Source: an uncultured Flavobacteriaceae bacterium
GTDB lineage: Bacteria; Bacteroidota; Bacteroidia; Flavobacteriales; Flavobacteriaceae
Length of the DNA stretch: 64,000 nt
Assembly: GCA_947502635.1 (NCBI GenBank)
Contig: CANNAN010000003.1
Span: 372,001-436,000 of the forward strand
Direction of reading: 5' to 3'
Shown: positions 53,960 through 57,216 of the stretch, one piece after another
Layout: each line of letters begins with the position of its first letter
Numbering within the stretch: the first letter of the stretch is position 1
Translations under genes and position numbers: made by a program
The notes under the pieces: generated by a model
Seen by the model: the letters and a program-made list of their open reading frames with translations, nothing else
The model's database searches: none
Told to the model about the DNA's origin: nothing

Positions 53960-54440
53960 GCGGCTAACCTCTTTTTGGTTTTTGTAAAAAGTGTGTGATC
54001 GAATTACTTATTCAATTATTGCTGCTATGTTTTCTAATATTTAATTTGGTGCTATTCGTTTTCTATGGTTATACCAATTTGGTCTATTAACGATATGAAG
54101 GTAATAATCTCTATTAAAGTTAATTCTAGTTTTATAACATAATAAATGGCTAAAATGATGGTTGTTACATCAAATAAATCTGAAAAAATATAAACGTTAT
54201 TAGCGTCTATAGGTTTTACTTCTTGGGTTTAGAATGAGAGTAGTCGAAAAGATTAAAATATTCTATGGAGAATATGGTTTGTAAGAACAGTTGAAAATAT
54301 ATGTATTCATAGGTTAGGTCATAGGTGTATTTTTAATTTTCAGATTTTACTATTCCTTATTATAAATTCGTCTTGCTCTATGCAAATTCTAAAAATTTCA
54401 TTCGATAATATCTAACTTTCTTAAAATCTGCATGTTACTT
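53960..54440. other. non-coding stretch after icmF
   Basis: No convincing gene; only ORFs of about 15 codons. A segment near 54225 (GAATGAGAGTAGTCGAAAAG) looks like a decayed copy of the GTCGAGA-type intergenic palindrome. No strong terminator for icmF could be identified. Confidence 0.4.
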
Positions 54441-54629
54441 AAAGGTTAACTATGTTTCCTAAAAGTTAACTTTTTTTTTTAACTGAGTTAAAATTTTTCC
54501 ATTTACAATAAAATCTTTTAAATTGTAGGTTAATTCTTAGAAATATAGTTGATAATACTTATAATATTGGAGTTTTTAATAAACATTTTATGTTAACCCT
54601 GCTTATGGAAGTTAATCCTACTTATGGAA
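54441..54629 (+). promoter_or_regulatory. paired GTTAA direct repeats upstream of the peptide gene
   Basis: Two copies of AAAGGTTAAC/AAAAGTTAAC lie at 54441 and 54461 (20-bp period). Further on, GTTAACCCTGCTTATGGAA (54592-54610) is directly followed by GTTAATCCTACTTATGGAA (54611-54629, 19-bp period, two mismatches). Another GTTAAT is near 54528. Direct repeats about two helical turns apart suggest binding sites for a dimeric activator, such as LytTR-type regulators. They end about 100 bp before the small peptide gene. Confidence 0.5.
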
Positions 54630-54663
54630 CAAAAAAAAGAAATAGTTTATAAAAAGCAACTAA

Positions 54664-54688
54664 GGTCGGACAAGCCCAAACAGCGACC
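54664..54688 (+). promoter_or_regulatory. leader hairpin before the peptide gene
   Basis: GGTCG (54664-54668) pairs with CGACC (54684-54688) around a C/A-rich 15-nt loop, about 40 bp before the start codon. It stands out as a GC-rich island in an AT-rich leader. No known riboswitch consensus is recognised. Confidence 0.35.
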
Positions 54689-54729
54689 CTAAAATCTGAA
54701 AGTAAGCATTAATTTATATACAATTAAAT

Positions 54730-54894
54730 ATGAATGTTTTAGTAAATCAAAAAGTTAAAGTATGGAAATCATCTTTCATAAATGATACAGATGTAACTCC
54801 AACAAAGTCAGCCTACATGAATGGAGAAGCTTATCTTACTGGATCTAGAGTGTGCAGTATTTGTGGTCCAAGTTCAAATGTAATTTCAATGTAA
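54730..54894 (+). CDS. small Cys-containing peptide, candidate RiPP precursor
   Basis: 54 aa, ATG 54730 to TAA 54892-54894. The N-terminal ~30 residues are polar (NVLVNQKVKVWKSSFINDT). The C-terminal part GEAYLTGSRVCSICGPSSN ends in VISM and contains a CxxCG pair. It is neither a typical signal peptide nor a membrane segment. A terminator-like hairpin directly follows it, then a PP-loop ATPase and a nucleotidyltransferase gene on the same strand. A short peptide gene with its own leaky terminator ahead of ATP-using enzymes is the layout of ribosomally made, post-translationally modified peptide clusters. The leader/core boundary and the modification are unknown. A stand-alone small protein is the alternative. 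Confidence 0.6.
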   Translation: MNVLVNQKVKVWKSSFINDTDVTPTKSAYMNGEAYLTGSRVCSICGPSSNVISM

Positions 54895-54905
54895 ATTTAG
54901 TCATC

Positions 54906-54947
54906 AAAGTACCCAGATTCAATTATGAAATAGAATCTGGGTTCTTT
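54906..54947 (+). terminator. terminator-like hairpin between peptide and PP-loop genes
   Basis: ACCCAGATTC (54911-54920) pairs with GAATCTGGGT (54933-54942), and the stem extends outward through AAAG/CTTT with a bulge. The tail TTCTTTGTTTC is T-rich but interrupted, so read-through is likely. This would keep the peptide mRNA in excess over the enzyme mRNA. Confidence 0.7.
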
Positions 54948-54961
54948 GTTTCTAATAAAAG

Positions 54962-55003
54962 GGAAATGCTTTTACTTAGACCTAACATCCTTACATTTCC
55001 TTT
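54962..55003 (+). promoter_or_regulatory. second hairpin before the PP-loop gene
   Basis: GGAAATG (54962-54968) pairs with CATTTCC (54994-55000), and an adjacent AAAAG/CTTT can extend the stem. It could be a processing or stabilising structure at the 5' side of the enzyme transcript. Confidence 0.45.
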
Positions 55004-55042
55004 GAAAAATTAATTGTATAAGAGATTAAAAAAAAATCATAT

Positions 55043-56221
55043 ATGGATATAATATTTAATACTGCACATGGCCAATTACAAATTGATGCTCCTATTAAAA
55101 GTTTAACTTTAGCAGAACTTTGTGACCTCAATAATTTGCCATACCAATCTATTAACTTCTATGGTGTAAATAATGATGAAGTACTAAGTATATTAAAAGG
55201 TATTAAAACTCGATCAATTGAGGAGCATCAAAAAAATGGAGCACTCAAAATCATCCTTCAACCAAACCGTAACATTAATTTTTCAAAAATTATAAAAAAA
55301 GATGTTGTGATTAAAAACATAGACAATGATTTCAGCAATAGCTATACCTTTCAATCTAGTAAATTTGAAAAGTTAGTTGATGTTGAGTTCAATCCCAGCA
55401 AATGTTTTGAGTATATATACGAATCTGTAGATGTATTTTTAGAAACAATAAATATTGATGATAGAAAAATTATTGTTGGAATAAGTGGTGGTGGCGATTC
55501 AAATACCTTATTAAAAGCGCTTATTAACAACAAATCAATAAAAAAAAGCCAGCTTATTGCAGTGATGTGTACAGGTTTAGATGTGTGGGATACAGCAATA
55601 GAAAGGGCAAGACATATTTGCGATGAAGCTGACATTGATTTAATTCTTGTTGGAGGACAAGAAATTTGTAAAATAATAGGAAAAAATAAATCAGAAAACT
55701 GGGAAGAAGCATTTTTTGAGGTATTTGAAGATAGTGATATTGATGCTTTAGGAACTTTAATCGTTCGTAAGGTTTTGCAAGCATATGTGAAAAAATTTGA
55801 TGCTCAAGCAATGGTAACAGGATTAAATTTAGAAGACCTTCTTGCTGAGTCTTTGTTTCAGGTCACAAAAAATAAGTTGCCTTTACCTTTTCCTATACGA
55901 ACAATTGATGATATTCCCTTATGGTTCCCTCTTTGGGAAGTTCCAAAAAAAATATTAGATGGATGTTACCCAAAATTTTCTTTAGAAAATTATGAGCAAA
56001 GGAATCCAGATAAGTTAATAAATAGAGCACTACCTTATTATTTTTCTCAAATGATGGCGTCGATAATACCAGGTTACGAATTTGATTTATTAAACGGGTT
56101 TAAAAATATTTCGGAAAAGAATAAAGATCCTTTTTTCTATGATGAAGATTTAGGTTTTTCAGTTACAGAGCCATTAAGTGAAGAATTAAAAGGAAAGTGG
56201 AAATATTACATCATATGTTAA
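55043..56221 (+). CDS. PP-loop superfamily ATPase with novel N-terminal domain
   Basis: 392 aa. The PP-loop motif GISGGGDSNTLL (about 147-158) binds and cleaves ATP between alpha and beta phosphates. The following core strand and helix (QLIAVMCTGLDVWDTAIERARHICDEADIDLILV) and the later TGLNLEDLLAESLF resemble the TtcA/TilS/NcsA tRNA-modifying group (GHNxDDxxET position). The usual zinc CxxC pairs of TtcA are absent. The first ~85 residues (IIFNTAHGQLQIDAPIKSLT...) are beta-rich and unassigned; a beta-grasp or peptide-binding fold is possible. The protein ends in a single Cys (YYIIC). It is linked to the small peptide gene and to a nucleotidyltransferase 9 bp downstream. Adenylation, thiolation or amidation of the peptide is a plausible inference. 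Confidence 0.75.
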   Translation: MDIIFNTAHGQLQIDAPIKSLTLAELCDLNNLPYQSINFYGVNNDEVLSILKGIKTRSIEEHQKNGALKIILQPNRNINFSKIIKKDVVIKNIDNDFSNSYTFQSSKFEKLVDVEFNPSKCFEYIYESVDVFLETINIDDRKIIVGISGGGDSNTLLKALINNKSIKKSQLIAVMCTGLDVWDTAIERARHICDEADIDLILVGGQEICKIIGKNKSENWEEAFFEVFEDSDIDALGTLIVRKVLQAYVKKFDAQAMVTGLNLEDLLAESLFQVTKNKLPLPFPIRTIDDIPLWFPLWEVPKKILDGCYPKFSLENYEQRNPDKLINRALPYYFSQMMASIIPGYEFDLLNGFKNISEKNKDPFFYDEDLGFSVTEPLSEELKGKWKYYIIC

Positions 56222-56230
56222 AACATTTTT

Positions 56231-56953
56231 ATGATAAAGGATAAATACATTATTGCAGAAAAAGAAGCTGTAAAATATGTTATAGATAATTTTCCAAAGG
56301 TAACGAGTATCATTATTGGAGGAAGTGTTGTTAGAAAGGAAGGAGATATTAATAGTGACTTAGACATATATGTTATACATACAGATAATTTCAGGAAAAG
56401 AGTTTTCAAGAAATTCAATGAAGTTCCTTGTGATTTTTTTGTAAACAATTTGTCTCATATTGATAACTATTTTAAAGAAGAATATAATAAAAACAGGCCT
56501 GTCACGGCCGACATAATTTCTACAGGTAAAGTTGTTTATGGAAACGAAACACCAGAGATACAAAGTCTTGTTGAAAAGGCAAAAGTATTGGCAGGTACTG
56601 GATATGTTGCTTCAAAAAAGGAACTTAATCTTAAAAAAATTGAACTGATGACTATTCTCGAAGATATTAATGACATATTTCAAAAAGATTATGAAACAAC
56701 CTGTTATCTGATGCAAAACTTAATTACCAAAGCTGTTGAACTATCATTTTTAAAAGCTAGGACTCCTTTACCAAGAATAAAAAAAAGACTTAAGGATTTG
56801 CTTTTTATTCAACCAGAGATTGGGTCAAAAATAAAAGAATTTTATAGAAACCATGATTTGTTAATAAAAGTGAGGATTTCTGAACAAATCGTTAATATTC
56901 TTTTAGATGAAAATAATAATCCAAAATTATGGGATTATACCGAAGATCTATAA
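56231..56953 (+). CDS. nucleotidyltransferase-domain protein with helical C-terminus
   Basis: 240 aa. The NTP-transferase signature GGSVVRKEGDINSDLDIYV (about 28-46) has the two metal-binding Asp residues (DLD), and a third acidic residue is in VPCDFFV. The C-terminal ~120 residues are helical (ELMTILEDINDIFQK...CYLMQNLITKAVELSFLKA), HEPN-like, as in MNT-HEPN or aminoglycoside adenylyltransferase relatives. It starts 9 bp after the PP-loop gene, and a terminator follows. It could nucleotidylate the peptide, the PP-loop protein or a small molecule. Function unproven. Confidence 0.78.
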   Translation: MIKDKYIIAEKEAVKYVIDNFPKVTSIIIGGSVVRKEGDINSDLDIYVIHTDNFRKRVFKKFNEVPCDFFVNNLSHIDNYFKEEYNKNRPVTADIISTGKVVYGNETPEIQSLVEKAKVLAGTGYVASKKELNLKKIELMTILEDINDIFQKDYETTCYLMQNLITKAVELSFLKARTPLPRIKKRLKDLLFIQPEIGSKIKEFYRNHDLLIKVRISEQIVNILLDENNNPKLWDYTEDL

Positions 56954-56987
56954 TAATAATTGGGGAAATCTTAATTCATTGAATAAT

Positions 56988-57024
56988 AAAAGCCAAGTAG
57001 ATTTATGATTATTTGGCTTTTTTT
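56988..57024 (+). terminator. intrinsic terminator closing the peptide cassette
   Basis: AAAAGCCAA and TTGGCTTTT pair, with a ~16-nt loop and a run of at least eight T residues. It lies 35 bp after the nucleotidyltransferase stop and bounds a 2.3-kb transcription unit that starts before 54730. Confidence 0.85.
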
Positions 57025-57216
57025 CATTAGAGTACTATAAAACCTAATACCACAACTTTAAACTTAAAATGTTGATTGATTGTTGTGTGGTTCTTTTTTA
57101 TACAAAGACACAGTGATTAAATTGCTTATAGTTTTTATAATAGATAAGTATTGATGGTATCTATTTAATATTACCACATCCGCTACCTTGCGATAGAAAT
57201 AAGCGAACAAAATTAA

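Follow-up and report, generated by a model that had tools for sequence, protein, structure and literature searches.

Does a short peptide gene lying beside a PP-loop ATPase gene and a nucleotidyltransferase (NTase) gene mark a pathway that modifies the peptide? The question is raised by a 64,000-nucleotide (nt) stretch of contig CANNAN010000003.1 from an uncultured Flavobacteriaceae bacterium (the window, meaning this whole stretch), in which positions 54730–57021 hold genes for a 54-amino-acid (aa) peptide, a PP-loop ATPase and an NTase, all on the plus strand. An initial annotation had proposed a new cassette with the layout of a cluster for a ribosomally synthesized and post-translationally modified peptide (RiPP), and all three genes were recovered where it had placed them. 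Because the peptide and the enzyme are paired, and because of the genes around them, a ribosomal peptide natural product is the best reading, and we consider it likely that this is a peptide-modifying cassette of the RiPP type. Of the earlier proposal, the recurrence of the peptide, the non-housekeeping character of the enzyme and the RiPP-like layout stood, while a CxxCG motif as the mark of the peptide and the NTase as part of the core did not.

Peptide genes beside PP-loop ATPase genes

We compared 43 PP-loop loci (the window, L002, L008–L011 and L032–L068), which span Bacteroidota, Pseudomonadota, Actinomycetota, Myxococcota, Patescibacteria and Bacillota. Thirty-eight of them, from six phyla, contain a gene for a short peptide whose last 12 residues match, so that the recurrence named at the outset as a check on the proposal was indeed observed. 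With start codons of both genes chosen by us, the peptide gene lies 6–262 nt upstream of the ATPase start on the same strand in 31 loci. In seven it is elsewhere in the locus, either 1 to 2.5 kb upstream (L036, L050, L058 and L065) or downstream of the ATPase gene (L044, L051 and L054). Two weak candidates were kept outside the counts, a 77-aa peptide of L035 ending VLACCNALNGWG and a 24-aa peptide of L056 ending CFISSSVFSG. The other loci with no counted peptide are L042 and L055, which begin at contig ends, and L068, a PP-loop gene fragment. The arrangement fits that of a RiPP, in which a precursor gene is co-localised with the gene of a modifying enzyme, here a PP-loop protein that would act on the peptide.

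As a control, a motif matrix was built from 21 non-Bacteroidota 12-mers. Of the 352 open reading frames (ORFs) of at least 30 aa in the window, the 54-aa peptide scored highest, at 16.0 with the runner-up at 6.1; in L002, L032 and L033, too, the peptide came first within its locus. Over all sequence examined, 33 of 7,818 ORFs scored at least 15, and each was the sole peptide of its locus. The seeds of the matrix are peptides of these same loci (one being the L056 candidate); independent of it are the Bacteroidota peptides and those of L036, L044, L050, L051 and L054, the latter five having been picked up by the matrix without having seeded it. Over the last 14 codons, silent and replacement changes stand at 9:1 between the window and L032, 4:2 between the window and L002, and 8:1 between L002 and L032, while comparisons with L033 (4:5, 5:5 and 4:6) give no silent excess. 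The 54-aa peptide has no family match in Pfam or NCBIfam.

Counted from the C-terminus, position −7 is Ser in 36 of the 38 peptides, Thr in one (L011) and Gly in one (L062). Position −8 is A, T, P or G in 36, and Glu occupies −13 in 30, the register being held from the C-terminus. Cys is found at −10 in 19 peptides and at −9 in 11, and is absent from the last 12 residues in L040 and L060. The last residue is variable (Q, M, V, N, G, W and others), as illustrated by the cores ICGASCETGAQ, ITGASCETGAQ, VLCASALTAQV, ILCTSSLAAFN and ICGPSSNVISM. The CxxCG motif first taken as the conserved mark fails on this comparison, since CxxC, judged by eye, is confined to the four flavobacterial peptides and two cores are Cys-free; CxxC was rejected as a family mark, and the anchor is Ser(−7) together with the C-terminus. 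The L062 peptide is the sole counted one without a hydroxyl at −7, and its enzyme is the sole one of 34 that lacks both G237 and T238.

The PP-loop enzyme

The motif SGGGDSN is identical in all 34 aligned PP-loop proteins and conforms to the SGGxDS pattern of thiolase PP-loops. Curated profiles did not place the window protein in a family: ATP_bind_3 of Pfam gave 21.7 bits, below its cut-off of 27, and NCBIfam gave about 15–21 bits to LarE, TilS, NcsA, NAD synthase and a few others, all far below the cut-offs. For TilS (TIGR02432) the score was 20.8 bits against a cut-off of 93.6, and for QueC (TIGR00364) 12.6 against 150.3. PF00733 matched one of 34 members (expectation value, E, 0.0076), which does not place the family with the asparagine-synthetase-like (AS-like) RiPP enzymes.

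An AlphaFold2 model built from 34 sequences (predicted local distance difference test, pLDDT, 91.9) returned TtuA/NcsA entries at Foldseek ranks 1–17 (best E 7e-11), followed by TilS and NAD synthetase, with AsnB first at rank 31. A profile search found NcsA at E 1.3e-9. TtuA binds its iron-sulfur (Fe-S) cluster through three cysteines, according to passages of PMC8584467. The Fe-S CxxC of NcsA aligns with a Cys-free stretch ending in a conserved G-T, and the three-cysteine site is missing from the cassette enzyme. Because these NcsA/TtuA ligands are absent, Fe-S thiolation is unlikely and was rejected for this enzyme. C308 is present in 32 of the 34 enzymes and has no CxxC partner; its role as an essential catalytic residue is doubtful, since L035 has Ala there. 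The initial annotation was right that TtcA-type CxxC pairs are lacking, and a clear grouping with housekeeping tRNA-modifying enzymes, which it had named as a result that would speak against it, emerged neither from curated scores nor from Fe-S ligands.

Residues 1–80 modelled alone (pLDDT 93.3) adopt a predicted ubiquitin-like fold, and ubiquitin-like, FERM, PB1 and Ras-binding domains make up most of the 50 Foldseek matches listed, the best having E 1.3e-3. On Geobacillus plasmid pGS18, the most distant PP-loop member (L011, 7698–8918) carries a C-terminal CxxC...CxxC tail resembling a zinc ribbon. Tails of this kind occur in TtuA and NcsA. Zn fingers are named in passages of PMC8584467. The tail hints that L011 may descend from the TtuA/NcsA clade.

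The third gene, genomic context and distribution

The NTase matches NTP_transf_2 of Pfam (28.9 bits, cut-off 21). It scores 13.6 bits (E 0.034) against Lnu(H), whose cut-off is 540, and 15.4 bits against the MntA type VII antitoxin NF047752, whose cut-off is 60, and so is assigned to neither the Lnu type nor MntA. The gene occurs once in its own genome and in no other among the 149 family genomes sampled. Relatives are found in L032, in L033 and, on the opposite strand, in the Geobacillus plasmid, which also has a nucleoside-phosphorylase-type gene, an MFS gene (as annotated) and a Clp/AAA gene. The third slot of the cassette is filled by the NTase in the window, L032 and L033, by a GNAT acetyltransferase in L002 (10 nt after the ATPase gene), and by an MFS-type transporter in six loci: Pfam identifies it in L008 and, below cut-off, in L059, and clustering with these two adds L034, L040, L056 and L062. 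Because L002 has nearly the same core peptide with a GNAT gene instead, the NTase lies outside the cassette core, and a PP-loop ATPase plus an NTase can no longer be taken as the pair that defines the class. Judged from gene content, the third gene seems unneeded for the core chemistry, and self-protection is more likely than tailoring. Additionally, the swapping of this gene between relatives suggests that the product is toxic to its producer.

Many relatives lie in biosynthetic clusters with M28 peptidase, P450, TauD, luciferase-like or aminotransferase genes. Clusters with GASCETGAQ-type cores contain an M28 peptidase (15 loci), a flavin adenine dinucleotide enzyme (12), a phosphodiesterase (11), an NDK-like protein (9, below cut-off), an aminotransferase (7), an amidase (6) and a luciferase-like protein (5). 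Those with VLCASALTAQV-type cores contain TauD (6) and P450 (5) genes, with a carbamoyltransferase in L058 and L065; L043, L052, L057, L060, L064 and L067 fall outside both patterns or were left unassigned. One member of each neighbour group was checked by Pfam, and ORF calls are rough in GC-rich loci, where some groups may include overlapping wrong frames. The M28-type peptidase (cluster C1, 15 loci) is a candidate for leader removal.

Several neighbours stand apart from these patterns. A phenylalanyl-tRNA-synthetase-like gene adjoins the cassette in L057 (11248–12471, minus strand) and L064 (8526–9641, plus strand); the two are 45% identical and differ in position, and each genome has another, better-scoring match to the alpha subunit elsewhere. 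The gene could serve self-immunity or tailoring, or could be a lineage paralogue. On a Patescibacteria contig (L035, 3447–4934) a gene with B12-binding and radical S-adenosylmethionine domains follows the PP-loop gene. Two distantly related cassettes have DUF455 genes within or beside them (L011, 1018–2151; L067, 10892–11977).

The enzyme is rare near its home and scattered beyond it. PP-loop matches were found in three of 299 family genomes, namely the window's own, a relative in G143 (70%) and one weak partial match. Over the family, order and phylum surveys, G143 supplied the sole full-length relative besides the window's own gene, all other matches being partial; of four partial matches at order level, the two checked (L004 and L005) are a 249-aa GSGNVAYH-type protein, dinucleotide-binding by eye, and were rejected as PP-loop proteins. 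Plasmid records yielded four relatives of 26–37% identity, all annotated 'hypothetical protein', the same four coming up whichever of three members served as the query; three of the four carriers are predicted to be conjugative. A five-row profile run against one genome per species added 37 further loci. A genome-contig scan with the single PP-loop protein gave no match, and no PP-loop relatives were found in phage and viral collections.

In a tree of 39 of the 43 proteins, the four flavobacterial members group together (100/100), as do six actinobacterial members of the TauD/P450 type (100/99). Members from Streptomyces, Myxococcus, Burkholderia and Pantoea interleave, which suggests that the genes may have spread by gene transfer; L011 and a few others have long branches, and support is weak at several forks. 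In L056 and L068 (both Bartonella) and in L059 (Bordetella hinzii) the PP-loop gene is interrupted or survives as a fragment; L059 still has a peptide ORF, and L056 a short candidate. These three are probably relics of the cassette. L038 and L042, from Candidatus Burkholderia leaf-nodule symbionts, both retain a cluster in which the genes around the PP-loop gene follow one order, and symbiont genomes of that kind are typically eroded.

In the window itself, the cassette occupies a variable site (Table 1), since both congeners searched (G248 and G019) hold a different gene between the same neighbours. Homologous flanks stop at 53998 and restart at 57209, and the congeners' interval measures 1.3 kb, with a 143-aa lipoprotein-like ORF that was called in L082 and whose stretch also aligns in L083. 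Two tandem 19-nt copies (GTTAACCCTGCTTATGGAA and GTTAATCCTACTTATGGAA, 89%) at 54592–54629, about 100 nt upstream of the peptide gene, are a possible operator.

The 148-nt spacer between the window's peptide and ATPase genes folds at z −3.96 and forms a second stem besides its hairpin. Of the 31 loci with such a spacer, 20 were tested against shuffled sequence, and 15 of these had a z of −2.5 or below; L033, L038, L039, L040 and L049 miss this value, and the hairpins are unlike in sequence between loci. Such folding fits high expression of the precursor and low expression of the enzyme. A terminator scan of the window listed only the distal site, a number at chance level (one found against 0.8 expected in shuffles). 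The 'leaky terminator' first described after the peptide gene is upheld as a folded hairpin, though one missing from the scan's list, and the 'strong terminator' at the unit's end has a 13-pair stem and T-run to its credit, though the statistics give it none.

Table 1. Coordinates of the cassette and associated features in the window
Feature	Position	Strand	Basis or detail
54-aa precursor-type peptide gene	54730..54894	+	C-terminal end CSICGPSSNVISM
Conserved C-terminal 12-mer SICGPSSNVISM, anchor Ser(−7)	54856..54891	+	Peptide comparison and motif matrix
Hairpin between peptide and ATPase genes, attenuator or processing site	54905..54948	+	Spacer folding
PP-loop ATPase gene, 392 aa, NcsA/TtuA/TilS-like fold without Fe-S cysteines	55043..56221	+	
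N-terminal ubiquitin-like (beta-grasp) domain, residues 1–75, predicted	55043..55267	+	Model and Foldseek
PP-loop motif SGGGDSN, residues 148–154	55484..55504	+	Alignment, 34/34 identical
NTase gene, 240 aa, proposed self-protection	56231..56953	+	NTP_transf_2 above cut-off
Intrinsic-terminator-like site at unit end	56988..57021	+	Terminator scan
Variable interval	53999..57208	.	Two congeners carry a different gene there

Proposed chemistry, alternatives and known systems

How might the enzyme act on its peptide? PP-loop enzymes adenylate a C=O oxygen. The 54-aa peptide would be a precursor composed of an N-terminal recognition part and the conserved C-terminal core; the enzyme would bind it, perhaps through the ubiquitin-like domain, and, at the cost of ATP, adenylate a core carbonyl. 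The activated group would most likely be the C-terminal carboxylate, because the shared core runs to the very C-terminus of the peptide, whose last residue is nonetheless variable. A near-invariant hydroxyl at −7 combined with a free last residue suggests an intramolecular lactone, in which the Ser(−7) hydroxyl would capture the activated carboxylate to give a seven-residue macrolactone. With the Fe-S ligands absent, a cluster-bound sulfide is an improbable nucleophile. The third gene would shield the producer, by nucleotidylation here, acetylation in L002 and export elsewhere, and in many other bacteria the peptide–enzyme pair would belong to larger natural-product pathways. We put the seven-residue macrolactone forward tentatively, as a possibility with better chances of being wrong than right. 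The composite picture is doubtful when all its parts are taken at once: a RiPP class over six phyla, whose PP-loop enzyme came from the tRNA-thiolase side, no longer has the Fe-S site and acquired a ubiquitin-fold domain for binding the peptide, with such a macrolactone as product and an exchangeable self-protection gene.

Several points weigh against this account. No product of the cassette is known, and neither a protease nor an exporter gene was seen in the flavobacterial cassettes. The NTase has no above-cut-off match to any known resistance family in NCBIfam. Fold matches of the modelled N-terminal domain are weak, none reaching 1e-3 among those listed. Five peptides (L011, L033, L036, L060 and L062; 10.9 to 13.9) overlap the score range of the best unrelated ORFs, two of which scored 14.8 and 12.3, and the weak peptides of L011, L040, L059, L060 and L062 were chosen partly by the motif and then became seeds. 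Since the last 12 residues alone were scored, C-terminally extended peptides would escape and the exact common end is partly made by the method. Additionally, L062 has Gly at −7, as would L035 have Asn if its candidate is real, and Ser(−7) is not singled out as a nucleophile because the register covers −13 to −1.

Attack by ammonia on an adenylated C-terminal carboxylate, as for TsrC, ScdTA, PesC and QueC, would yield an amide or nitrile and leave Ser(−7) a role in recognition alone. The common core does end at the C-terminus in all 38 counted peptides, passages of PMC13060819 give precedent for such chemistry on peptide C-termini, and the QueC and NAD synthase profiles match weakly; yet Pfam found no glutaminase domain, the last residue varies widely, and the conserved residue is seven places in. 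We regard this outcome as unlikely, if still a serious candidate. Another alternative is chemistry on the backbone at Ser(−7): the amide carbonyl of −8 would be adenylated and then attacked by Ser(−7) or an added nucleophile, with an oxazoline, amidine or thioamide as the outcome. In passages of PMC8584467 the thiolases closest in fold are described as adenylating the uridine C2 position, and a small or turn-forming residue (A, T, P or G) precedes the Ser position in 36 of 38 peptides. The absence of an Fe-S or CxxC sulfur site weakens thiolation, however, and the common C-terminal end would be left unexplained, and we hold backbone chemistry to be a little less likely still.

The cassette might instead lie outside natural products altogether, as a toxin-antitoxin or defence unit, or as a Pup-like protein tag with its ligase. 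Pup is similar in size to the cassette peptide. The patchy distribution and the conjugative carriers would suit such a unit, as would an NTase weakly like MntA antitoxins with weak PADLOC candidates (PDC-S09, E 4.6e-4). Against this, PADLOC at E 0.01 assigned no family to the four PP-loop proteins scanned (window, L034, L066 and L011), on which ground a known defence system was rejected; the phage and viral collections hold no relatives, and many relatives sit among peptidase, P450, TauD and luciferase-like genes, so that we think this explanation very improbable. That the short ORF is a regulatory leader with an attenuator hairpin before a tRNA-modifying enzyme can practically be dismissed: an ORF followed by a hairpin and nearest folds among tRNA-modifying enzymes speak for it, but the peptide is away from the ATPase gene in seven loci and downstream in three, is conserved at the protein level across six phyla, and accompanies an enzyme scoring far below tRNA-enzyme cut-offs.

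If the RiPP-type reading is true, the PP-loop protein and the C-terminal 12-mer together offer a handle on an unlisted family of peptide natural products reaching from Flavobacteria to Streptomyces, leaf-nodule Burkholderia and Patescibacteria, and the enzymes of peptide modification gain a new lineage, akin to tRNA-thiolase-like ATPases. The three-gene flavobacterial cassette is small enough for direct reconstitution, and the Candidatus Burkholderia cluster (L038/L042) is of interest as the source of a possible symbiosis metabolite. Literature searches on PP-loop proteins with RiPPs, precursor peptides or natural products, on the core motifs, and on TtuA/NcsA with RiPPs gave no description among the matches listed, most subscription journals lying outside their coverage, so that a published name is possible. 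Within that partial coverage, the initial annotation's remark that no described RiPP class is of this kind holds, and the passages compared did not confirm the Pantoea plasmid locus as a described Pantoea antibiotic. We read the cassette family as an undescribed one of the RiPP type.

Among known systems, Agr autoinducing peptides also come from a short precursor, with a bond between its C-terminal carboxylate and a Ser or Cys at a fixed distance, like the one proposed here, but a membrane peptidase replaces the ATPase and the ring has five residues. Microcin C likewise combines a tiny ribosomal precursor with one adenylating enzyme, export and acetyltransferase self-protection; its MccB, however, is of the ThiF/E1 type and not a PP-loop enzyme. 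Lincosamide-type antibiotic nucleotidyltransferases have a similar NTase domain, although the cassette protein is far below the Lnu(H) cut-off. AS-like RiPP enzymes (lasso cyclases, TsrC, ScdTA and PesC of the nitrilobacillins) share PP-loop-superfamily adenylation, peptide substrates and carboxylate chemistry, PesC acting on peptide C-termini, as set out in passages of PMC13060819; the cassette enzymes, in contrast, are nearly free of PF00733, have no glutaminase domain that Pfam could find, and are nearest in fold to NcsA/TtuA. The QueC/ToyM nitrile synthetases convert a carboxylate to a nitrile in an ATP-dependent manner (passages of PMC13060819), whereas the cassette enzyme lies far below the QueC profile cut-off. 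Its PP-loop ATPase fold is that of the NcsA/TtuA/TtcA thiolases, of which TtuA works with a ubiquitin-like partner, TtuB (passages of PMC8584467). Unlike them, the cassette enzyme has no Fe-S CxxC, appears to carry its ubiquitin-like domain fused at the N-terminus, and is encoded beside a peptide gene.

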